The notes under the pieces were generated by a model. That model ran no database searches. It had not been told where the DNA came from and saw only the letters and a program-made list of their open reading frames with translations. Shown here in pieces: positions 2,660 through 14,616 of a DNA stretch of 45,347 bases. The stretch's first letter is position 1. The number at the start of each line of letters is the position of its first letter. Position numbers and translations under genes: made by a program. Source of the stretch: Acidobacteriota bacterium (lineage in GTDB: Bacteria; Acidobacteriota; Vicinamibacteria; Vicinamibacterales; 2-12-FULL-66-21); assembly GCA_003223835.1 (NCBI GenBank), contig QHWR01000108.1, positions 1 through 45,347 of the forward strand, written 5' to 3'.

Positions 2660-3256
2660 TTAGTCGTCCAACAGACGTGAATCGAACGGCAGCGGGAGCA
2701 GCGCCGACAGTCTGAACCGGCCCCTTACTCCGGACAAATTGGCGAGCACGATTTCGATGTCGCCGCAGAATTCCCAGAGGAGCTGGCGGCAGGAGCCGCA
2801 CGGCGGCGTCGGCTCGGCCGTATCGGCGACGACGGCGATGCGGGTGAAGAGTTCGTTGCCGTCCGAGAGCGCTTTGTAGAGCGCGACGCGTTCGGCGCAC
2901 ATGGTCAGGCCGTAGGTCGCGTTCTCGACGTTACAGCCGGTGATGACGTCGCCGTCGAACGTCTCGAGGGCGGCGCCGACCTGAAAGTGCGAGTAGGTCG
3001 CGCGCGCGCGCGAGCGGGCATCGATCGCGGCGGCGATGAGCGCGCCTTCGTCTCTTGCACGCTTCGACGCCGGATCGATCGCGACCGTCTGCCAGCCCGC
3101 TTCGTCCCGGCGGTCCTTGCCGGAGCGCCGTTCCCCGACGCGACGCTCCGCGGGGCCACCCGTGCGCGGATCCTTCCTCGAACGCCGATCGCCCCCGGAT
3201 CGCCGCTCCGCACGGCGGCGCTCGCCGCTCCAGCCTTTCTTCTCAGAGTCGCTCAA
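2660..3256 (-). CDS. cdd: Cytidine deaminase with an unusual basic RR-repeat N-terminal extension
   Basis: Zn motifs [24 protein letters not shown] and [16 protein letters not shown]-terminus [50 protein letters not shown]. Confidence 0.88.
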
Positions 3257-4058
3257 GGATGCCCCCCAGCAGCGACGCGAACGTGCCGCGCACGCGCCGC
3301 GCGACCTCCATCACCTCTTTGTGATCGAGCGGCTGCGGCAGCACGCCCGCCGCCGCGTTGCTGATGCAGGAGATGCCGAGCACGTCGACGCCCATCTGGC
3401 GGGCGACGATCGCCTCCGGCACCGTCGACATGCCGACGGCGTCGGCGCCGATCGTCCGCAGGTACCGAATCTCGGCGGGAGTCTCGTAGCTCGGTCCGTG
3501 GAGCGCGACGTACACGCCGTGGCCGATCGCGATCCCGAGCGCCTGCGCCGCGCTTGCGGCCAACCCGCGAAGGCGCCTCGAATACACCTCGGTCATGTCC
3601 GGAAACCGCGGGCCGAAGCGGTCGTCGTTCGGCCCCACGAGCGGGTTGCTGCCGAGCAGGTTGATGTGATCGTCGATGAGCATCAACGTGCCGGGCGTCA
3701 GGCTGACGGTGATGCCGCCCGCGGCATTGGTGAGGATCACCACCTTCACGCCGAGCCGTCCCATCACGCGCGTCGCGAAGGTGACGGTGCGAAGGTCATG
3801 GCCTTCGTAGTAATGCGCGCGCCCGGACAGCGCGGCCACGCGCTGACCCGCCATCAGGCCGATGGCGAGCCGTCCTTCGTGTCCGACGACGCGCGACGCG
3901 GGCCAATGCGGGAGGTCGGCGTACGGAAACGACACCGCGCCGGTGAGCGTGTTCGCGAAGTCGCCGAGGCCCGAGCCGAGGACGATCGCCACGTCGGGCG
4001 TGCCCGCGCGTTGACGGATGAACCCAGCGGCTTCCTCGACTTGATCGAAGTAATCCAT
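3243..4058 (-). CDS. Purine-nucleoside phosphorylase (PNP type I family)
   Basis: MDYFDQVEEAAGFIRQRAGTPDVAIVLGSGLGDFANTLTGAV..., LSGRAHYYEGHDL, VVILTNAAGGI, LIDDHINLLGSNPLVGPND, VGMSTVPEAIVARQMG; overlaps cdd by 14 bp. Confidence 0.92.
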   Translation of the reverse strand: MDYFDQVEEAAGFIRQRAGTPDVAIVLGSGLGDFANTLTGAVSFPYADLPHWPASRVVGHEGRLAIGLMAGQRVAALSGRAHYYEGHDLRTVTFATRVMGRLGVKVVILTNAAGGITVSLTPGTLMLIDDHINLLGSNPLVGPNDDRFGPRFPDMTEVYSRRLRGLAASAAQALGIAIGHGVYVALHGPSYETPAEIRYLRTIGADAVGMSTVPEAIVARQMGVDVLGISCISNAAAGVLPQPLDHKEVMEVARRVRGTFASLLGGILERL

Positions 4059-4064
4059 CGCACA

Positions 4065-4082
4065 CCCGACCTGAAGGTCGGG
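4065..4082. repeat. REP-like hairpin CCCGACC-TGAA-GGTCGGG
   Basis: Perfect 7-bp stem with TGAA loop between PNP and nupC. Confidence 0.6.
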
Positions 4083-4087
4083 CCTAC

Positions 4088-5467
4088 TCACAACAAAAAC
4101 CCTGCAATCGTCGCGGTGACGAAGTTCGCGAGCGTGCCGGCGAGCATCGCGCGCAGGCCGAGGCGCGCCAGGTCATGACGCCGCGTGGGGGCCAGCGCGC
4201 CGATGCCGCCGATCTGGATGCCGATCGAGCTGAAGTTCGCGAACCCGCACAGCGCGAACGTGGCGATCGTGAACGATTTCGGATCCAGCGTCGCCTTCAG
4301 CGGCCCGAGCTGCGAATAGGCGACGAACTCGTTGAGCGCCATGCGGGTGCCGAGCAGGTTGCCGATCGTGGGCGCGTCGCGCCACGGGACGCCCATGCTC
4401 CAGGCGATGGGCGAGAACACCCAGCCGAAGATCTGCTGCAGGCTCAGGCCCGCGAGACCGAGCAGGGCGTTGACCAGCGCCACGAGCGCGAGAAACGAAA
4501 TCAGCATCGCGCCGACGTTCAGCGCAAGCTGAAGCCCCTCGCCGGTGCCGCGTCCCGCGGCGTCGATCACGTTGACGTCCGTCTTCTCGATCTCCAGCCG
4601 CACCGTGCCGAGCGTCTCGGGCACCTCGGTCTCCGGCACGAACATCTTCGCCATCATCAGCGTGCCCGGCGGCGTCATGATGACGGCCGTCAGCAGGTGC
4701 TTCGCTTCGATGCCGAACAGGATGTAGGCGGCCATGATCCCGCCGGAGATGTGCGCCATCCCCGACGTCATCACGGTCATCAGCTCCGATTCCGTCATGC
4801 GCGGCAGGTACGGACGGATCGTCAGGGGGGCTTCGGTCTGACCCATGAAGATGCTCGCGGCGACGTTGAGCGACTCGGCGCCGCTCGCTTTCATCATGCG
4901 GCGCATCACGATCGCGAACAGCCGGACGACGATCTGCATGACGCCGAAGTAATAGAGGATCGCGAACAGCGCCGCGATGAAGATGATCGTGGGCAGCACC
5001 TGGAACGCGAAGATGACGCCGTACCTCGCCCCTTCCGGCCCGAGGATCTTCGTCATGATCTGCGGCCACACGACCTTGTCGCCGAGCGGGCCGAAGACGA
5101 AGCTCGATCCGACGAACGCGAAAGCGAGAAGGCGGTTGATGCCGGCGCCGAGCGTCTGAAAGACGCGCTGGCCCGCCGCCGTCTTCAGGACGAGCAGGGC
5201 GAAGACGATCTGCAGCGTCAGGCCCCACGCGACGGTCCGTCGATCGATCGCGCGCCGGTTCGTGGAGAGCGCGTACGCGATCGTCATGATGGTGATGAGG
5301 CCCGTGAGCGGCTGCAACCGCGCCAGCCCGGGCAACCGCGCGGCCCCGGCGCACAGCGCCGCGGCGACGATCGCGGCCGCGACGACGAGCAGGTCGCGCC
5401 GGTCGTAGGGGACGCGGCCCGGGGCCGGCCGCGCGGCCTCGGCCGCGGGCGCGTGGGTCACCATCAA
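4088..5467 (-). CDS. NupC-family (CNT) nucleoside transporter
   Basis: Multi-TM protein with FGPLGDKVVWPQIMTK, FAFQVLPTIIFIAALFAILYYFG, FMGQTEAPLTIRPYLPRMTESELM, MAHISGGIMAAYILFG, RMALNEFVAYSQL, ALCGFANFSSIGIQIGGIGALAP. Confidence 0.92.
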   Translation of the reverse strand: MMVTHAPAAEAARPAPGRVPYDRRDLLVVAAAIVAAALCAGAARLPGLARLQPLTGLITIMTIAYALSTNRRAIDRRTVAWGLTLQIVFALLVLKTAAGQRVFQTLGAGINRLLAFAFVGSSFVFGPLGDKVVWPQIMTKILGPEGARYGVIFAFQVLPTIIFIAALFAILYYFGVMQIVVRLFAIVMRRMMKASGAESLNVAASIFMGQTEAPLTIRPYLPRMTESELMTVMTSGMAHISGGIMAAYILFGIEAKHLLTAVIMTPPGTLMMAKMFVPETEVPETLGTVRLEIEKTDVNVIDAAGRGTGEGLQLALNVGAMLISFLALVALVNALLGLAGLSLQQIFGWVFSPIAWSMGVPWRDAPTIGNLLGTRMALNEFVAYSQLGPLKATLDPKSFTIATFALCGFANFSSIGIQIGGIGALAPTRRHDLARLGLRAMLAGTLANFVTATIAGFLL

Positions 5468-6780
5468 GCGCTCCTTTTCTGAATGCGATCCAGGATCAGC
5501 GGCCGTCGTTCGCGCGGCGCGTCGCCGACTTCGATCGCGGCGTCCAGCAGCCGCCGCGCGTCGGCGAGCCCGGATCCCCCCCGGTGGTGCACTTCGAGCA
5601 GCGGGTCACCCTGTTTCACGGTCGTGCCGACCGGCGTCAGCACGATCAACCCCACGCCCGGATCGATCGTCGCGTCGATCCGATCGCGTCCGGCGCCGAG
5701 GAGCACGGCCGCGCGCCCGATCGCTTCCGCCTTCAGCGCGGTCACGACGCCGGCGCGCGCGGCACGCACGTACTCGCAATCGGGCGCCGCCGGCAGCCGC
5801 GTATAGTCGTCCACGACGGCGGGGTCTCCTCCCTGGTTCTCGATGATCTCGCGCAGCTTCTCGAGCCCGGCGCCCGACGCGAGCGCCTTCCGCACGCGCG
5901 CGGTGGCTTTGGCGCCGTCCGGCTCGACGCCCGAGACGGCGAGCATGCGCGCGGCGAACTCCACCGACAACGATTCGATGTCCGCCGGACCGCGTCCCTT
6001 CAGCGTCTCGAGGCACTCGATGATCTCGACGGCGTTGCCGACCGCGCCGCCGAGCGGCGCGTCCATGTTCGTCAGCAGCGCCTCGGTGCGGACGCCCGCC
6101 GCTTCGCCGATCGAGACGAGCGATTCGGCCAGCCGCCGCGCATCCTCGTCGGTCTTCATGAACGCGCCGTCGCCGTACTTCACGTCGAGCACGAGACCGC
6201 CGATCCCTTCCGCGATCTTCTTGCTCATGATCGACGCGGAGATGAGCGGGATGCTCTCGACGGTCGCGGTCACGTCGCGCAGCGCGTACAGCTTGCGGTC
6301 GGCGGGCGCGATCTCGGAGGTCTGCCCGATGAGCGCGCACCGGATCGATTGCACCGCGCGGCGCAGTTCCTCGAGCGACAGCGCCGTCCGAAAACCGGGG
6401 ATCGACTCGAGCTTGTCGAGCGTGCCGCCGGTGTGCCCGAGCCCGCGGCCCGACATCATCGGGACGTACGCGCCGCACGCGGCGGCGAGCGGGGCGAGCA
6501 CGATCGACAGCTTGTCGCCGACGCCGCCGGTGCTGTGCTTGTCGACGGGCACGCCGTCGAGTCCGGGATAGTCCACGCGGACGCCGGAGCGCACCATCGC
6601 GTCGGTGAGCGCGGCCGTCTCCTCGGCGGTCATGCCTTTCAGGACGATCGCCATCAGCAGCGCGGACGCCTGGTAATCCGGGAGCGTGCCGTCGGTCACG
6701 CCGGCCACGAAGAAGTCGAGGGAGGCGCGGTCGAGGCGTCCGCCATCCCGCTTGGTGCGAATGAGATCGACCGCGCGCAT
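5464..6780 (-). CDS. Thymidine / pyrimidine-nucleoside phosphorylase
   Basis: MRAVDLIRTKRDGGRLDRASLDFFVAGVTDGTLPDYQASALLMAI..., VPVDKHSTGGVGDKLSIVLAPLAAACG, PMMSGRGLGHTGGTLDKLESIPGF; start at 6780 in frame. Confidence 0.93.
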   Translation of the reverse strand: MRAVDLIRTKRDGGRLDRASLDFFVAGVTDGTLPDYQASALLMAIVLKGMTAEETAALTDAMVRSGVRVDYPGLDGVPVDKHSTGGVGDKLSIVLAPLAAACGAYVPMMSGRGLGHTGGTLDKLESIPGFRTALSLEELRRAVQSIRCALIGQTSEIAPADRKLYALRDVTATVESIPLISASIMSKKIAEGIGGLVLDVKYGDGAFMKTDEDARRLAESLVSIGEAAGVRTEALLTNMDAPLGGAVGNAVEIIECLETLKGRGPADIESLSVEFAARMLAVSGVEPDGAKATARVRKALASGAGLEKLREIIENQGGDPAVVDDYTRLPAAPDCEYVRAARAGVVTALKAEAIGRAAVLLGAGRDRIDATIDPGVGLIVLTPVGTTVKQGDPLLEVHHRGGSGLADARRLLDAAIEVGDAPRERRPLILDRIQKRSA

Positions 6781-6826
6781 GAAAGGCCCAGAGAGTATAA
6801 TTCGGGCCGCTCCCTCGTTCCAGACA

Positions 6827-9043
6827 ATGGCCGACGTCCCGACCCTGCCGCCGGAGTTGTGCCGGAGCGTCGTATCCGTCGCACGCACGCTCGTCGCCGC
6901 GGCCCGGAGCTGGACGTTGTATCCGTCCGAGCATCCCGCCGTGCGCGGCTCGCTCGATCGTCTCGCGAGCGCGATCGCCGGCGCGGCGGCCGGCGGCGTC
7001 TTCTCGTTCGGCGTCACGCCCGACGATCTGCTCGTCGAAGGCATTCCGGTCAAACGCGAACGCGTGACCGCGGAAGCGGCGGCGTGGCTGCACGCGCGCG
7101 ACATCCTCCAGATCACGGTCGCGGGCGACGTCGCGCCGCGCGCGCTGCAGCCATTCCTCGCGCTGCTCGCAGAAGACCCGGCGTCGGTGCGCCGCCGCGG
7201 CGGCCCCGCGGCGGTCTGGGCGGAACAGCGCGACCGATCGATTCTGATCGAGCAGATCGATTTCAGCCGCGTCCTCGAGGAGCGCGACGTCGAGCACCCG
7301 GCGCGGCGGAAAGACGACCTGTGGCGCGCGATCGTGCGCGCCGTCCTCGAGAAGCGCCGCGCGCTCGACGAAACGGCGCACGCGCGCCTGCTCGACATCG
7401 CGGGCGACGTCGTCGCGATCGCCCAGCTCGCCGGCGATGTCATGGCGCCGCATTACGCCGCCGACGGATCGCCGATGCTCACGTCGCAGGCCGCGGCGGT
7501 CGTCGCCGCCTATCGTCATCTGACCGGCATCATCGAGGTCCTCGCGCCCGACCGGCGCCAGGAAGTCATGCAGAACCTCGCGGCGGCCACCGCGAGCCTC
7601 GATCCGCACGTCGTCATGCAGATCCTGCACACGGCGGAAGACCCGCGCCGTGAGACGGCGAGCGTCGGCGGCGCCGCGCCGATGCTCGGCGGGCTCGTCG
7701 CGGCGTTCGACGACCTGAAGGTCGCGCAACTGCTCGCGACGACCCTCGCGATCGACGGGCAGGCGTCGGAGCGGCTCGCGAGCGTGTTCGACACGATCGC
7801 GCCCGACGCGCAGCGCAAGCACCGCGTCCTCACGCTGACGAAGTCGTTGCTCGGCGAGATGGATTTCGGCCGCCGCGATCACTTCCAGACGCTGTGGTCG
7901 TCGATGGAAGAACTCCTTCTCACCTACAACGAACGGCCGTTCGTGTCCGCGTCGTATCGCACCGGCCTGGACGGCGTCGCCGCGCGCGCCGAGGCGATGG
8001 CGGGCGGCGACCTGCCCGAGGACCTCGTCGCGCTGATCGACACGCTCGGCCAGGAAAACGTCCGCCGTCTGTCGGTCACGCTGCTGATCGATCTGCTCCG
8101 CATGGAGCAGGACGCGACGCTGGCCGGCGGCGTCGCGCGCGATCTCGCCGCGTTCGCGGAGGATCTGCTGATGGCGGGCGACTACGACGCGGCGCTCACG
8201 GTCGTGACCGCGCTCGGCGGGCACGCGGGCGATCCCGCCTCCATCGCCGGCGAGGCGTGCCGCGTCGCGCTCGACGGCATCGTGGCGACGGCGGCGTTTC
8301 ACGACGCGGCGGAACTGCTCGGCGAGATGAGCGACGCGGAAGCCGAACGGTTCTCCAGGGTGTGCGAGCGCATCGGACCGGCCGCCGCCGACGCGCTGCG
8401 GGATCTGCTCGAGGCCGAGGAGCTGACGCCGGGACGCGGACGCGCGAGCGCGATCATCGCGCGCTACAAGGAACGCGCCGTCAGCCGCCTCGCCCCGCTG
8501 ACGTCGTCGCCGCGCTGGGCGGCGCAGCGCAACGCGGCCGATCTGCTCGGCGAGATTGGCGCGCCGGACGCGGTGCCGCTGCTCCATCCGCTGCTCCGCG
8601 GGAGCGACGCCCGGGTCATCCGCGCCGCCGTCCGCGCGCTCGCGACGATCAAGAGTCCCGTGGCCGCGCGCGCGATTCATACGGCGCTGCGGGCGGCGAC
8701 CGGCGAGCAGCGACGCGCCGTCGTCGAGGCGCTCGTCGCCGAACGCGACGCCCGCGTCGTCCCCGTGCTCGTGCGGATCGTCGAGGAGAGCAACCCGTTC
8801 GGCGCGGATCACGCGATCGTGCTCGACGCGCTCGCCGCGCTCGCGACCGTCGGCGACGATCAGGCGATCCCGGTGCTGACCGCGACGATGCGGCGGAAGA
8901 AGCTGTGGGGCGGGCGCAAGCTCAAGACCGTCAAGCAGGCGGCGGTCGCGGCGCTGCACGCGATCGGATCGCCCGCGGCGGCGGACGCGCTGCAGGACGC
9001 GGCGCAGAACGGCGACCGGCTGCTCCGGCGACTCGTGCAGTGA
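6827..9043 (+). CDS. HEAT-repeat protein (HEAT-1) with N-terminal 'LYxxxHP' domain
   Basis: MADVPTLPPELCRSVVSVARTLVAAARSWTLYPSEHPAV...; C-terminal HEAT-like repeats (WAAQRNAADLLGEIGAPDAVPLLHPLLRGSDARVIRAAVRALATIKSP...). Confidence 0.8.
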   Translation: MADVPTLPPELCRSVVSVARTLVAAARSWTLYPSEHPAVRGSLDRLASAIAGAAAGGVFSFGVTPDDLLVEGIPVKRERVTAEAAAWLHARDILQITVAGDVAPRALQPFLALLAEDPASVRRRGGPAAVWAEQRDRSILIEQIDFSRVLEERDVEHPARRKDDLWRAIVRAVLEKRRALDETAHARLLDIAGDVVAIAQLAGDVMAPHYAADGSPMLTSQAAAVVAAYRHLTGIIEVLAPDRRQEVMQNLAAATASLDPHVVMQILHTAEDPRRETASVGGAAPMLGGLVAAFDDLKVAQLLATTLAIDGQASERLASVFDTIAPDAQRKHRVLTLTKSLLGEMDFGRRDHFQTLWSSMEELLLTYNERPFVSASYRTGLDGVAARAEAMAGGDLPEDLVALIDTLGQENVRRLSVTLLIDLLRMEQDATLAGGVARDLAAFAEDLLMAGDYDAALTVVTALGGHAGDPASIAGEACRVALDGIVATAAFHDAAELLGEMSDAEAERFSRVCERIGPAAADALRDLLEAEELTPGRGRASAIIARYKERAVSRLAPLTSSPRWAAQRNAADLLGEIGAPDAVPLLHPLLRGSDARVIRAAVRALATIKSPVAARAIHTALRAATGEQRRAVVEALVAERDARVVPVLVRIVEESNPFGADHAIVLDALAALATVGDDQAIPVLTATMRRKKLWGGRKLKTVKQAAVAALHAIGSPAAADALQDAAQNGDRLLRRLVQ

Positions 9044-9150
9044 AATTGGTGAATTCGTGAATTGGCGAATTGGTGAATTGGAGGGATGACATTGAATTCA
9101 GGCACGAGGAGAATTCACCAACCCACCAATTCTGCAATTCACCAATTGCC
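9042..9150. repeat. Octamer array with inverted partner: (GTGAATTG)n at 9042-9081, complementary array at 9111-9149
   Basis: GGTGAATTCGTGAATTGGCGAATTGGTGAATTGG ... GAATTCACCAACCCACCAATTCTGCAATTCACCAATTGCC, filling the HEAT-1/HD-GYP-1 junction. Confidence 0.85.
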
Positions 9151-9164
9151 TGGGACGACCGTGC

Positions 9165-10520
9165 ATGGCTGACGTCGCGACGCTCGACGATCTCGTCCGT
9201 CGCATGGCCGCGGCCACCCGCGGCGCGACGCTCTATTCGCCGTCGCATCCGCTCGTGCAGCGCGGCGTCGACGCGCTCGCCGCCCTGTGCCAGACGCTGC
9301 TGGAGCAGACCGACAGCCTGGTCATCGGCTTCCTCGGCGACGACGTCGTCGTCAACGCGCAGCGGCTCCCGCGATCGGCATCGGCGCTGGCCGGGTTCGC
9401 GCGCGATCTGCGGGAGCGCGAGATCGAGAAAATCAGCGTCGCGCGCGGCGTCATGAAAGAGGAGCTGAGCACGTTCGTCTTGGAGCTGGCGGATCGGCGG
9501 TCGCCGCTCGCGTTGTCGACGCGGCTGGAACAGAAAGGCGTCAGGAACATCACGATCGGCCGCATCAACGTCGAGCAGGATCCGCCGGCAACGCCCGGAA
9601 TGGCGGCGGTGAAGCAGGTCTACGACACCGCGGTCGCCACGGCGGAGGAGCTGTGGCACACCGCGAAGGCGGGAGACAAGCCGGACCCGAACGCCGCGAA
9701 GAAGATCATCGAGAGCCTCGCGCGGCTGGTCGGGCAGGACCGCACGTCGCTGCTCGCGCTGACGGCGCTGAAGCGCTACGACAACTATACGTTCACGCAC
9801 ATGGTGAACGTCTCGGTGCTGTCGATGGCGCAGGCGCGCGCGCTGAACCTGCAGGGACCGCTCCTGCGCGAATTCGGTTTCGCGGCGCTGATGCACGACA
9901 TCGGCAAGGTCAACACGCCGCTCGAGGTCTTGAACAAACCGGATCGGCTGACCGCCGAAGAATTCCGGATCATGCAGCAGCACGTCGTGGACGGCGCGCA
10001 TATCCTGCGGCGGACGCCGGAGATGCCGGCGCTCGCCCCTGTCGTGGCGTTCGAACATCACCTGCGGCAGGACCTGTCGGGCTATCCGGAAAAGATTGGG
10101 CGGCGGAGCTTGAATCTCTGCACGCAGATTGTCAGCATCGCCGACGTCTACGATGCGCTGCGCAGCAAGCGCGTCTACCGCGACGGGCTGTCGAGCGAGC
10201 GCGTGCGCGCGATCATGACGGAGAAGGACAGCCCCGCATTCAACACGAAGCTGCTGCGCCGCTTCGTCAATCTGATTGGCCTGTTTCCGGTCGGCACGCT
10301 GGTGCGGCTCAACACGGAGGAAATCGCGGTGGTCGTCCACGAGCATCCGTCCGACCCGTTCCGGCCGCAGGTGAAGATCGTGCGGGATCGCGCGGGCGCG
10401 GCGATCGAGGAGCCGTTGGTGGTCAACACGTGGGAATCCGGCGGAGGCGATGCGCCGTGGGCCGTCGTCGAAGCGGTCGATCCGGAAGCGGTCGCGATCG
10501 ATCCGCTTCAGTACATGTAA
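9165..10520 (+). CDS. HD-GYP domain protein (HD-GYP-1; putative c-di-GMP phosphodiesterase) with N-terminal 'LYxxxHP' domain
   Basis: MADVATLDDLVRRMAAATRGATLYSPSHPLVQRGVDAL...; NYTFTHMVNVSVLSMAQAR, LMHDIGKVNTPLEVLNKP, FEHHLRQDLSGYPEKI, IADVYDALRSKRVYR. Confidence 0.9.
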   Translation: MADVATLDDLVRRMAAATRGATLYSPSHPLVQRGVDALAALCQTLLEQTDSLVIGFLGDDVVVNAQRLPRSASALAGFARDLREREIEKISVARGVMKEELSTFVLELADRRSPLALSTRLEQKGVRNITIGRINVEQDPPATPGMAAVKQVYDTAVATAEELWHTAKAGDKPDPNAAKKIIESLARLVGQDRTSLLALTALKRYDNYTFTHMVNVSVLSMAQARALNLQGPLLREFGFAALMHDIGKVNTPLEVLNKPDRLTAEEFRIMQQHVVDGAHILRRTPEMPALAPVVAFEHHLRQDLSGYPEKIGRRSLNLCTQIVSIADVYDALRSKRVYRDGLSSERVRAIMTEKDSPAFNTKLLRRFVNLIGLFPVGTLVRLNTEEIAVVVHEHPSDPFRPQVKIVRDRAGAAIEEPLVVNTWESGGGDAPWAVVEAVDPEAVAIDPLQYM

Positions 10521-10528
10521 CCGTGTCA

Positions 10529-10575
10529 ATGCCGAATGCCGGATGCCGAATGCCGAAGGTGCCTTGTGTCGGCAT
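10529..10575. repeat. Heptamer array (ATGCCGA)4 plus one inverted unit
   Basis: ATGCCGA ATGCCGG ATGCCGA ATGCCGA at 10529-10556; TCGGCAT at 10569-10575. Confidence 0.85.
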
Positions 10576-10592
10576 TTGGCTACGACCGTTCT

Positions 10593-12800
10593 ATGCCTGA
10601 TGCTCCGGTACCGGCGCTCGACGCGGCCCTGACGGCAAAGCTCGCCGATTTCGCGCGAGGCTGCAAGGCCGCCGCGCGCGCGGTGTCGCTCTACCCCGGC
10701 GGCCACCCCGCGATCGCGTCGACGCTGGGGCGCCTCACCCAGCTCACCGCGTCGCTGACGGAGGGTGGGCCGTTCACGCTGCAGGTGCGCCCGGGGACGC
10801 TGCACGTCGGCGACGCCGCGCCGGCCAAGCCCGATCCGGCGATCGTCGAATTGTCCGAACTGCTCCGCCGTCAACTGATCGGCCGGCTCACGCTGACGAC
10901 CGGCGCGGACGCCGAGTCGTGGCGCACGCTGCTGATGCTGCTGGCGCGTCCGCCGGAAGAAGTACGGGCCGACGGCGGCATCGCGCACCTCTGGGCGACG
11001 GCCGGGGGACCGAGCATCGAGCTGCAGCAGATCGATTACGCCGAGGTGCTGCGCGACAAACGAGGGGACGCGGCCACGCTCGATCGGATCATCGCCGCCG
11101 CGCTGGCCGGCCCGCAGCTCGAGCTCGACGACTCCGCCATGCGCACGCTTCTCGAAATCGTCGGCGACCCGGCGCGCTTCGACGAGCTGATCACGAAGCT
11201 CGAGACGGAGACGGGCGATCGCGGCGTCGAGGTCCGCATGGCGGCGTTCCTCAACCTGCTGCGCGGCTTGACGGAGTACGTCGGCCGCGCGGCGCCGGAG
11301 AAGCTCGAAGGCGTGCTGCGCCAGATGAGCCAGGCCGCCGGGCGCCTCACCGCCGACGGCATGCTCGAACTGCTCGACCGCAGCAGGAAGCCCGAAGCGA
11401 TGGCGGGATCAATCAACGTCGTCAACGCCGTCGTCGATCGAATGACCGACGCCACGGTGGCGCACTTCGTGTCGTCGTCCGTCATCCAGGAGCGCGGCGC
11501 GTCGGAGCGGCTGGCCCAGGCGTTTCAAACGCTCGTGCCGAACAACGATCGCCAGCGCCAGCTGCTCGCCCTGGCGGAGCAGGACGTGGCGGCGTCGCCC
11601 CTTGGCCAGGAGGCCATGTTCGCCGACCTCTGGACGCGCGTGGAAACGATGTTGACGTCGTACTCGGACGCGAGCTTCGTCACCGACGCGTACGCGCGCG
11701 AGCTGTCGAACGCGCGGACGCGCGCGACCGAGGTGGAAGCGACGAACGACGACCCGCCCGAACGCATCGGCGCGTGGGTCTCGACCGTGAACGACAGCGC
11801 GCTCCGGAGCCTCGATCAGCAGGTGCTCGTCGACCTGCTCGCGCTCGAGATGGATCCGTCCCGATGGCGCGACATCGCCGACACGGTCGTCGGGCACGCC
11901 GAGGATCTGGTTCGCGTCGGCTATTTCGACACCGCGTGGTATCTCGCCGAGCAGGTGGCCACGCAGTCGGCCGAGCAGGACGGCCGCCGCCCGCACGCCG
12001 CCGCCGCGCTCGAGCGCTTCGGCCGCGGCCCCATGATGAAACACGTCGCGAAGCACCTGCGCAGCGTCCACGACGAAGGCTACGAACGCTTCGGCCGCGT
12101 CTGCCACGCGATCGGACCCGCGATCATCCCGCCGCTCGCCGAGGGGCTGTCGGCGGAGCAGGACGCGCGCTCCCGCCGCCGGCTGCGCGACATCCTCGTG
12201 GGCTTCGGCGCGGCCGGGCGCGAGTCGGTCCAGCAACTGATGAACGCGCCGAACTGGGAAGTGCGCCGCACCGCCGCGTATTTGCTCCGCGAATTCGGCG
12301 GGACCGAGGGGCTGCGCGAGCTGCAGCCGTTGCTCAGCGACAGCGAGCCCCTGGTCCAGCACGAAGCGATCCAGGCGCTCATCCTCAACGGCAGCGACGC
12401 CGCGTCGCAGATCCTCGTGCAGGCGCTGACGGCAACGACCGGCCGTCCGCGTCAGACGCTCATCAAGGAGCTGACGACGACGCGCGACGAGCGCGCCGCG
12501 CCGCTCTTCTGCTATCTGGTGCGCCACCTCGATCGGCGCGCGTTCCCAGCCATCCATCTGGCCGCCGTCGAGGCGCTCGGCACGTTCGGCGGACCCGATG
12601 CGGTCGAAGCGCTCAAGGACGCGCTGCAGAAGGGGGACTGGTGGGCGCCGCTGAAGACGCGCCGCGTGCGCGCCGCGGTCGCGCAGGCGCTCCGCCGCAT
12701 CGGCACGGCGGCGGCGATCGAAGCGCTGCGGGACGCGTCCGAGCATGGCGCGTTCGGCGTCCGTTCGGCGGCAAAGGCCGAGTTGACGAGGCTGACGTAA
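10593..12800 (+). CDS. HEAT-repeat protein (HEAT-2), paralogue of 6827..9043
   Basis: MPDAPVPALDAALTAKLADFARGCKAAARAVSLYPGGHPAI...; IELQQIDYAEVLRDKRGD; C-terminal HEAT repeats (WEVRRTAAYLLREFGGTEGLRELQPLLSDSEPLVQHEAIQAL). Confidence 0.8.
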   Translation: MPDAPVPALDAALTAKLADFARGCKAAARAVSLYPGGHPAIASTLGRLTQLTASLTEGGPFTLQVRPGTLHVGDAAPAKPDPAIVELSELLRRQLIGRLTLTTGADAESWRTLLMLLARPPEEVRADGGIAHLWATAGGPSIELQQIDYAEVLRDKRGDAATLDRIIAAALAGPQLELDDSAMRTLLEIVGDPARFDELITKLETETGDRGVEVRMAAFLNLLRGLTEYVGRAAPEKLEGVLRQMSQAAGRLTADGMLELLDRSRKPEAMAGSINVVNAVVDRMTDATVAHFVSSSVIQERGASERLAQAFQTLVPNNDRQRQLLALAEQDVAASPLGQEAMFADLWTRVETMLTSYSDASFVTDAYARELSNARTRATEVEATNDDPPERIGAWVSTVNDSALRSLDQQVLVDLLALEMDPSRWRDIADTVVGHAEDLVRVGYFDTAWYLAEQVATQSAEQDGRRPHAAAALERFGRGPMMKHVAKHLRSVHDEGYERFGRVCHAIGPAIIPPLAEGLSAEQDARSRRRLRDILVGFGAAGRESVQQLMNAPNWEVRRTAAYLLREFGGTEGLRELQPLLSDSEPLVQHEAIQALILNGSDAASQILVQALTATTGRPRQTLIKELTTTRDERAAPLFCYLVRHLDRRAFPAIHLAAVEALGTFGGPDAVEALKDALQKGDWWAPLKTRRVRAAVAQALRRIGTAAAIEALRDASEHGAFGVRSAAKAELTRLT

Positions 12801-12841
12801 AGGCAGAAGGCAGAAGGCAGAAGGCAGAAGGCAGAAGGCAG
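12800..12841 (+). repeat. Heptamer array (AAGGCAG)6
   Basis: Six perfect AAGGCAG units, starting at the last base of the HEAT-2 stop codon and ending 8 nt before the ATG at 12850. Confidence 0.95.
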
Positions 12842-12849
12842 AGAACACT

Positions 12850-14616
12850 ATGACCGAGCCAGCTTCGCGGATTGGGGTGTACGAAGAGCTGCTTCGCCGT
12901 CTGGCGTCGGGGGTGCGCGCGGCGCAGCTCTACGCCCCCGATCATCCGCTCGTCGCGCGCAACGTGGACGGACTGCAGGTCGCGCTCAAATCGCTGCTCG
13001 CGCAGCAGCCTTCCGTCGTCGTCGGCATCGTCGGCGAGGACCTCGTCGTCGGCGAGACGCCGCTGCCGAAGGTCAGCGGCGGCATGAGCGAGTTCATCCA
13101 CCGGTTGACGGACCATCACATCGAACGCATCGCGTTCGAGCGGGGCGTGACGCAGGACGAGCTGGTCGCGCTGATGCAGAAGATCTCGAAGCTCACCGGC
13201 CGCTCCACGATTGACGCCGAGAAGGATCTGTCGAGCGCGCACGTTCGCATCGGACGCCTGAAGGCCGAGGATCGGCGGCAGGACGGCATCGCCAGCGACC
13301 TCGCCGCGATTCGCCAGTTGTATTCGAACGCCGTCTCGGCGGCCGAAGTCGCGTGGGAAACGGCCGCCGGCGAGGGCATGCCGGACGCGCCCGCGGCCCT
13401 CCAGGCGGTCGAGGGGCTCGCCGAAGCCGTCACGCAGAACCGCACCGCCCTCGTCGCGCTCACCGCGATGCGCAACTACGACAACTACACGTTCACGCAC
13501 ATGGTGAACGTCTCGATCCTGACGATGGGGCAGGCGCGTGCGCTCGGGATCGACGGACGGCTGCTCCGCGAGTTCGGGCTGTCGGCCCTCATGCACGACA
13601 TCGGAAAAGTGCGCACGCCGAAGGAAATCCTGAACAAGCCCGACAAGCTGACCGACGAGGAGTTCACGGTCATGCGGCGCCACACGGTCGACGGCGCCGA
13701 GATTCTGCGGCGCACGCCGGAGATGCCGATCCTCGCGCCGGTCGTCGCGTTCGAACATCATCTGCGCATCGACGGGAGCGGTTATCCTTTCAAGGTGAAG
13801 CGCGCGAGCCTCAACCTCGGGACGATGCTCTGCAGCATCTCCGACGTCTACGATGCGATGCGCTCGCAGCGTGTGTATCAGCAGGCCCACCCCACCGACC
13901 GGATCCTGGCCGTCCTCAAACGGAACGACGGCACGCAGTTCGATCAGCACCTGGTGCGGCGGTTCGTGCAGCTGCTCGGCATCTACCCGCCGGGCAATCT
14001 CGTGAAGCTCAGCTCCGGCGAGGTCGCGGTCGTCCTGCACGTACACGCGCCGGATCCGTACCGGCCGCGTGTGAAGGTCCTGTTCGGCCGCGACGGCGTC
14101 CGCCTCGACCTGCCCTACGAACGCAACCTGTGGGAAACGCGGCCGGAACCTGAGACCCGACGCGTGAGTGAAGCGCTCAGAACGGTCGTCGTCGCCTTTG
14201 GCGCGCTCGCGCTCGGGTTCACCTGGCAGGCCGTCCGGACGGCCGCCGTGCCGACGTCGTCGCCCGAGCGGCTCGTCGCGGAGCTGCGGCTGGCGCAGAT
14301 GGCGGCGCTCCTGCTGGTCCTCACGGCCGGCGCGTACATCGGCTTCGCCGCGGCGCACGAGAATCGGCCGGGGGTTGGATTCGACGTGGCGTTGTCGATC
14401 GGCTTCCTGCTCGTCGCGGCGGTCACGATCGTCCGCGATCCCCGGCAGGCCCTCACGATCATCGCGCTCGGCTTCGCCGCGCACGCCGTGCTCGACGTGC
14501 TCCACCGTCCCGGATGGCTGCCCGACGGGCTCACGCCGCGCTGGTATGCCATCGGGTGCGCCGTGTACGATGTCTACGTCGGCGCGCTGTGCTATCTCCC
14601 GATCCTGAGGCGTTGA
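12850..14616 (+). CDS. HD-GYP domain protein (HD-GYP-2) with N-terminal 'LYxxxHP' domain and C-terminal multi-TM domain
   Basis: AAQLYAPDHPLVARNVDGL; LMHDIGKVRTPKEILNKPDKL; FEHHLRIDGSGYPFK; C-terminal hydrophobic segments TVVVAFGALALGFTW, MAALLLVLTAGAYIGFAAA, DVALSIGFLLVAAVTIV, GCAVYDVYVGALCYLPIL. Confidence 0.9.
   Translation: MTEPASRIGVYEELLRRLASGVRAAQLYAPDHPLVARNVDGLQVALKSLLAQQPSVVVGIVGEDLVVGETPLPKVSGGMSEFIHRLTDHHIERIAFERGVTQDELVALMQKISKLTGRSTIDAEKDLSSAHVRIGRLKAEDRRQDGIASDLAAIRQLYSNAVSAAEVAWETAAGEGMPDAPAALQAVEGLAEAVTQNRTALVALTAMRNYDNYTFTHMVNVSILTMGQARALGIDGRLLREFGLSALMHDIGKVRTPKEILNKPDKLTDEEFTVMRRHTVDGAEILRRTPEMPILAPVVAFEHHLRIDGSGYPFKVKRASLNLGTMLCSISDVYDAMRSQRVYQQAHPTDRILAVLKRNDGTQFDQHLVRRFVQLLGIYPPGNLVKLSSGEVAVVLHVHAPDPYRPRVKVLFGRDGVRLDLPYERNLWETRPEPETRRVSEALRTVVVAFGALALGFTWQAVRTAAVPTSSPERLVAELRLAQMAALLLVLTAGAYIGFAAAHENRPGVGFDVALSIGFLLVAAVTIVRDPRQALTIIALGFAAHAVLDVLHRPGWLPDGLTPRWYAIGCAVYDVYVGALCYLPILRR

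Follow-up and report, generated by a model that had tools for sequence, protein, structure and literature searches.

A shared, unnamed N-terminal domain in paired HEAT-repeat and HD-GYP proteins of Acidobacteriota suggests a two-protein signalling unit

The window analysed here (45,347 nucleotides of contig QHWR01000108.1, assembly GCA_003223835.1, from an Acidobacteriota bacterium of the Vicinamibacterales) carries at 6827-14616 a plus-strand array of four genes in the order HEAT-1, HD-GYP-1, HEAT-2, HD-GYP-2, just where an earlier sequence-only reading had placed them. The first ~150 residues of all four proteins are one homologous domain, here called the N-domain, and the array points to a signalling unit of two proteins that has not been described before. 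Directly established for this unit are the common domain, a near-obligate adjacency with the HEAT gene first, duplication of the unit, and kept metal ligands in the HD-GYP proteins. The best reading of the sequences is that the HEAT and HD-GYP proteins would bind each other through the N-domain.

Relatives for the N-terminal profiles were taken from 76 GTDB loci, and one profile was built per gene. All four HEAT/HD-GYP combinations of these profiles matched in hhalign (probability 97-98%), and the pooled HD-GYP (22 sequences) and HEAT (25 sequences) N-profiles aligned with a probability of 98.5%, an E-value of 3.9e-15 and a score of 93.5, compared with 19-20 for reversed profiles, at most 20.6 for 30 column shuffles, and 16-18 for the N-profile against the remaining domains of the other protein. 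The shared N-terminus proposed in the sequence-only reading, whose eight quoted peptide strings are all present in the array proteins, is borne out by these scores. In genome searches each N-profile alone recovered the other protein type (HD-GYP profile to HEAT-1, E 5e-11). AlphaFold2 models of HD-GYP-1 and HEAT-2 (mean predicted local distance difference test score 90.7 each) have the same order of N-domain elements (helix, helix, strand, strand, helix, strand, helix(es), strand), with a short turn joining the two strands after the first helix pair. The top conserved motif, R-x(3)-LY-x(3)-HP, sits at the turn joining helices 1 and 2.

When 47 N-domains were scanned singly, no Pfam family rose above noise and thus no known input domain (GAF, PAS, REC) was recognised; the Pfam scan of the four array proteins likewise gave zero matches within any N-terminus. 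Searches of PDB sequences with the N-profiles returned chance-level matches only, and Foldseek matches to the full HD-GYP-1 and HEAT-2 models were confined to the HD-GYP and HEAT parts. The sequence match to Bd1817 begins at its residue 133, and a likeness of its N-terminal domain was not seen by sequence. A plasmid-borne relative of the N-domain was not found. Because profiles, genome searches and models agree, and Pfam and solved structures gave zero matches, the N-domain is real, homologous across both protein types, and unnamed in the searched libraries.

Pairing was assessed for every N-domain HD-GYP gene in all fetched loci with readable upstream DNA; loci were picked by N-domain or HD-GYP-2 peptides, not by pairing, and some regions were chosen from match lists by eye. 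Directly upstream, on the same strand, lies a HEAT or helical gene for 3/3 such genes in the source genome, 94/94 testable genes in Vicinamibacterales-type loci (in 7 of these 94 cases the HEAT gene is there with its N-domain in a different frame or off the contig), and 24/24 in other Acidobacteriota families. The same holds for 23/23 in a second phylum (that of genome G247, probably Myxococcota), where one pair is a single 1182-residue fusion chain (L220). A broad-profile search found the N-domain in 84/141 genomes of this second phylum and in 48/149 Acidobacteriota genomes. The source genome has exactly six N-domains, forming three pairs; the third, on another contig (C206; L010 5182-8899), consists of a 770-residue N-domain frame, the rest of which is helical and not called HEAT by Pfam, followed by an N-domain HD-GYP gene. 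As a within-genome control, none of the six HD-GYP genes of the source genome that lack the N-domain has a same-strand HEAT gene adjoining.

The pair was also read at first sight as duplicated, and the relatives agree: HD-GYP-1 and HD-GYP-2 sequences form two separate groups, and the split between HEAT-1 and HEAT-2 mirrors theirs. Single-pair loci nest at several places within the HD-GYP-2 group. The simplest reading of these groupings would be one duplication of the whole unit, after which several lineages lost the first pair. The features of the array are as follows.

6827..9043, plus strand: HEAT-1, 738 residues; N-domain, helical middle, C-terminal HEAT repeats (Pfam HEAT_2, E 1e-24)
About 6857-7291, plus strand: HEAT-1 N-domain, profile match E 5e-37
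9165..10520, plus strand: HD-GYP-1, 451 residues; N-domain, helical linker, HD-GYP domain, C-terminal beta barrel
About 9171-9581, plus strand: HD-GYP-1 N-domain, profile match E 6e-38
9894..9908, plus strand: HDIGK motif of HD-GYP-1, residues 244-248 (H244, D245, K248), from the metal-ligand comparison
10056..10088, plus strand: HHLRQDLSGYP motif of HD-GYP-1, residues 298-308
10593..12800, plus strand: HEAT-2, 735 residues; N-domain, helical middle, HEAT repeats (Pfam HEAT_2, E 1e-25)
About 10629-11063, plus strand: HEAT-2 N-domain, profile match E 5e-39
12850..14616, plus strand: HD-GYP-2, 588 residues; N-domain, HD-GYP domain (Pfam HD_5/HD), C-terminal hydrophobic extension
About 12877-13284, plus strand: HD-GYP-2 N-domain, profile match E 6e-36
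14185..14613, plus strand: C-terminal hydrophobic extension of HD-GYP-2, probably a four-helix membrane region, with weak, sub-threshold similarity to DUF3429/DUF6010

HEAT-2 could start at an earlier ATG (10536), and no terminator-like site was seen between the four genes. Pfam places HEAT_2 in the C-terminal third of both HEAT proteins, with several repeats each above cut-off, and HD_5/HD in the two HD-GYP proteins (E 3e-19 and 2e-20). Over their full lengths HEAT-1 and HEAT-2 are 29% identical and HD-GYP-1 and HD-GYP-2 50%. The hydrophobic extension of HD-GYP-2 is in frame here; in close relatives (loci L014, L016, L017) the HD-GYP frame ends earlier and the counterpart of the extension is a separate frame, overlapping or downstream. 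The in-frame form is either a gene fusion in the source genome or an assembly frameshift.

The HD-GYP domains were compared with PmGH of Persephonella marina (PDB 4MCW), which is both the best PDB sequence match of the family profile (E 7e-48) and the top fold match for the HD-GYP-1 model (4R8Z also matched). In an alignment of 39 HD-GYP-1 and 63 HD-GYP-2 sequences in PmGH numbering, both sets keep H189, H221, D222, H250, H276, H277 and D305, seven of the eight PmGH metal ligands, the single exception in each set being one sequence gapped at D305; K225, D308 and the GYP residues are also kept. The position of PmGH E185 is Tyr in 39/39 HD-GYP-1 and 63/63 HD-GYP-2 sequences, so that the proteins belong in the Y/F subfamily described by Bellini et al. 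(PMC4159591). A carboxylate at 185, the mark of the trinuclear (E/D-T-G) subfamily, is absent from both sets. In PmGH, loss of ligands or of K225 abolishes activity, while E185 is naturally variable (PMC4159591). With seven of eight ligands kept, cyclic di-GMP (c-di-GMP) phosphodiesterase activity of both array HD-GYP proteins is plausible.

The HDxGK motif of the HD fold is present as HDIGK in HD-GYP-1 and HD-GYP-2, but the HHExxDGxGYP consensus is matched only in part: GYP is intact, the Glu is Leu in nearly all sequences, and HD-GYP-1 has DLSGYP for DGxGYP, with Leu at both positions where HH is normally followed by Glu and D by Gly. Because GYP mutants of PmGH remained active (PMC4159591), this lowers the motif match and not the functional claim. 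PmGH further differs from the array proteins in having an N-terminal GAF domain where they have the unnamed alpha/beta domain, and E185 and Glu after HH where they have Tyr and Leu; a HEAT partner is not reported for it in the literature consulted.

The Desulfovibrio c-di-GMP receptor DvhD (PDB 9RBZ/9RC0), which has the same fold and also signals within a small protein network, shows that an HD-GYP domain can work purely as a receptor (PMC13090378); it is without metal ligands, does not hydrolyse and has periplasmic and PAS domains. By analogy, HD-GYP-1 and HD-GYP-2 could be receptors and not enzymes, with the HEAT protein relaying their change of shape, and several distant family members do lack some active-site residues. 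We consider this improbable, since HD-GYP-1 and HD-GYP-2 show no DvhD-type loss of ligands and retain K225 and the metal ligands essential in PmGH, bar the variable E185.

In the mechanism proposed here, the downstream gene would encode an HD-GYP phosphodiesterase, probably of c-di-GMP, whose two-metal centre would be of the tyrosine type, and the upstream gene a long HEAT-repeat protein that opens with the same alpha/beta domain as the enzyme. The two N-domains would form an evolved heterodimer, and through this binding the HEAT protein would serve as a regulatory or targeting subunit that tethers the enzyme to a client or toggles its activity. The outcome would be a local, regulated c-di-GMP sink, and each of the two tandem pairs would serve its own client through a channel of its own. 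We give about even chances to the core of this proposal, a two-gene unit in which the HEAT subunit binds the N-domain HD-GYP phosphodiesterase through an N-domain heterodimer. Slightly less confidence attaches to the wider proposal of an undescribed heteromeric second-messenger module, in which a paralogous heterodimer domain would link a dedicated HD-GYP phosphodiesterase to its HEAT regulatory subunit across Acidobacteriota and the second phylum, with several insulated copies per genome.

Known systems resemble this unit in part. RpfG (REC/HD-GYP) is an HD-GYP enzyme that also acts via protein-protein contacts (PMC4159591), but its partners are GGDEF proteins bound via the GYP motif, not a HEAT protein with a common N-domain. 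The A subunit of PP2A, a HEAT/Armadillo scaffold, has a similarly long helical repeat and its chains are among the fold matches, but template modelling scores are low (about 0.2) and there is no common N-domain, a resemblance of repeat type only. A HEAT/HD-GYP pair with a common N-domain was not found described in the accessible literature, subscription literature lying largely outside the search. An anti-phage defence system was considered and rejected, PADLOC giving only weak partial matches in the HEAT and HD regions.

The N-domain/HEAT unit also occurs outside the pair. In two genomes of another Acidobacteriota family it forms the tail of a GGDEF-AAA-N-N-HEAT protein; this fusion to a diguanylate cyclase, with two N-domains per chain, ties the unit to c-di-GMP. 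In locus L234 (2746-6102) the gene just before an N-domain HD-GYP gene encodes a protein kinase domain with an N-domain/HEAT tail. Several lone N-domain HEAT genes of the second phylum share a recurring context, near recA-, cinA- or ruvX-like genes (names assigned by eye). The loci concerned, together with those of a small HD-domain gene discussed below, are:

L155 582-4859 and L156 5933-10219, minus strand: GGDEF, AAA_16, two tandem N-domains and HEAT repeats, ~1430 residues
L208, L218, L221, L223 and L230: lone N-domain HEAT genes in recA-/cinA-/ruvX-like context
L150, L151, L153 and L178: small HD-domain gene upstream of, and overlapping, the HEAT gene

From the lone, kinase-linked and GGDEF-linked forms it follows that the N-domain/HEAT unit is a signalling part, most often partnered by the N-domain HD-GYP protein.

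Several observations weigh against the proposed mechanism. N-domain HEAT genes that have no HD-GYP partner (15 entries from Acidobacteriota loci outside the Vicinamibacterales, 8 from the second phylum) make the pairing rule one-sided. The co-occurrence expected in the sequence-only reading therefore held from the HD-GYP side, with a neighbour in every testable case, and was not general from the HEAT side; even so, the two gene types are not rarely found together and their N-termini are clearly homologous. In one Acidobacteriota family (4 examined loci) the HEAT gene is preceded and overlapped by a gene for a 223-226-residue HD-domain protein that carries neither N-domain nor GYP, so the N-domain is not explicable by HEAT/HD-GYP pairing alone. 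The active site is degenerate in some distant N-domain HD-GYP relatives; catalysis is thus not universal in the family, and members with lost active-site residues may be receptors like DvhD. Distance correlations between partner proteins are modest. A first coevolution run gave a correlation of 0.96 between cognate N-domains, owing to one frameshifted locus (L033) without an HD-GYP-1 N-domain. With that locus removed, partial correlations were 0.60 for pair 1 and 0.33 for pair 2 against up to 0.29 for non-cognate partners, and the non-cognate value rose up to 0.59 with further loci dropped; for the N-domain by itself, cognate and non-cognate partners were thus not told apart.

Some of these forms would suit an N-domain that senses a common ligand and is no dimerisation module; the two proteins would read the signal separately and be co-transcribed as members of one pathway. 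The N-domain also stands at the front of lone HEAT proteins and of a kinase-HEAT protein, the conserved Y..HP turn could be a structural or a ligand feature, and N-terminal sensor domains are common in HD-GYP proteins, e.g. the GAF of PmGH (PMC4159591). We regard this as unlikely, although the strongest of the alternatives, as it poorly explains why a HEAT neighbour with the same domain stands beside every N-domain HD-GYP gene, or why tandem N-N and fused forms exist; the heterodimer is preferred.

Divergent from the array, on the minus strand at 3243-6786 of the window, are what look like genes for purine nucleoside phosphorylase, a nucleoside transporter and thymidine phosphorylase. Nucleoside genes upstream and phosphatase-type and sigma-type genes downstream recur in many of the 76 loci, which makes the location of the array an old one. 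The least probable of the alternatives, and a distinctly doubtful one, is that the substrate is another (cyclic) nucleotide, such as cyclic GMP-AMP (cGAMP) or one linked to nucleoside salvage, with the HEAT protein as a general subunit of HD hydrolases. It draws on the family in which a small HD protein lacking GYP accompanies the N-domain HEAT protein, on the cGAMP phosphodiesterase V-cGAP3 among the matches, and on the nucleoside genes named above, which many Vicinamibacterales loci have upstream. Those genes, however, are divergent from the array, the pair recurs in numerous further Acidobacteriota families as well as in a second phylum, and the GGDEF fusion points to c-di-GMP.

Two additional carriers were rejected. 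The phylum around G248 (titled Alphaproteobacteria) yielded only G248, through a contig that resembles an Acidobacteriota contaminant, and one marginal match in 150 genomes; G250 (titled Acidimicrobiia) falls among the same Acidobacteriota genomes. Loci L074 and L022, from Myxococcales- and Acidobacteria-titled bins (nzgw250 and nzgw77, respectively), are very much alike (gene coordinates equal up to an offset, scores close), which probably reflects contamination between bins; L083, from a bin titled Alphaproteobacteria, resembles this case.

It is an open question how individual c-di-GMP phosphodiesterases work on a single target while sparing the whole-cell pool, and one answer that has been proposed is dedicated partner proteins. 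In the present case, genomes seem to label the partners of an enzyme directly, with the same domain on the enzyme and on a scaffold-type protein, kept across two phyla. The N-domain is now defined in proteins that Pfam sees solely as HEAT repeat or HD domain, and because one genome holds three pairs, the set is a ready test of insulated signalling. What would be new is a form of HD-GYP signalling in which the enzyme has a HEAT partner of its own and both rely on a common unnamed domain.

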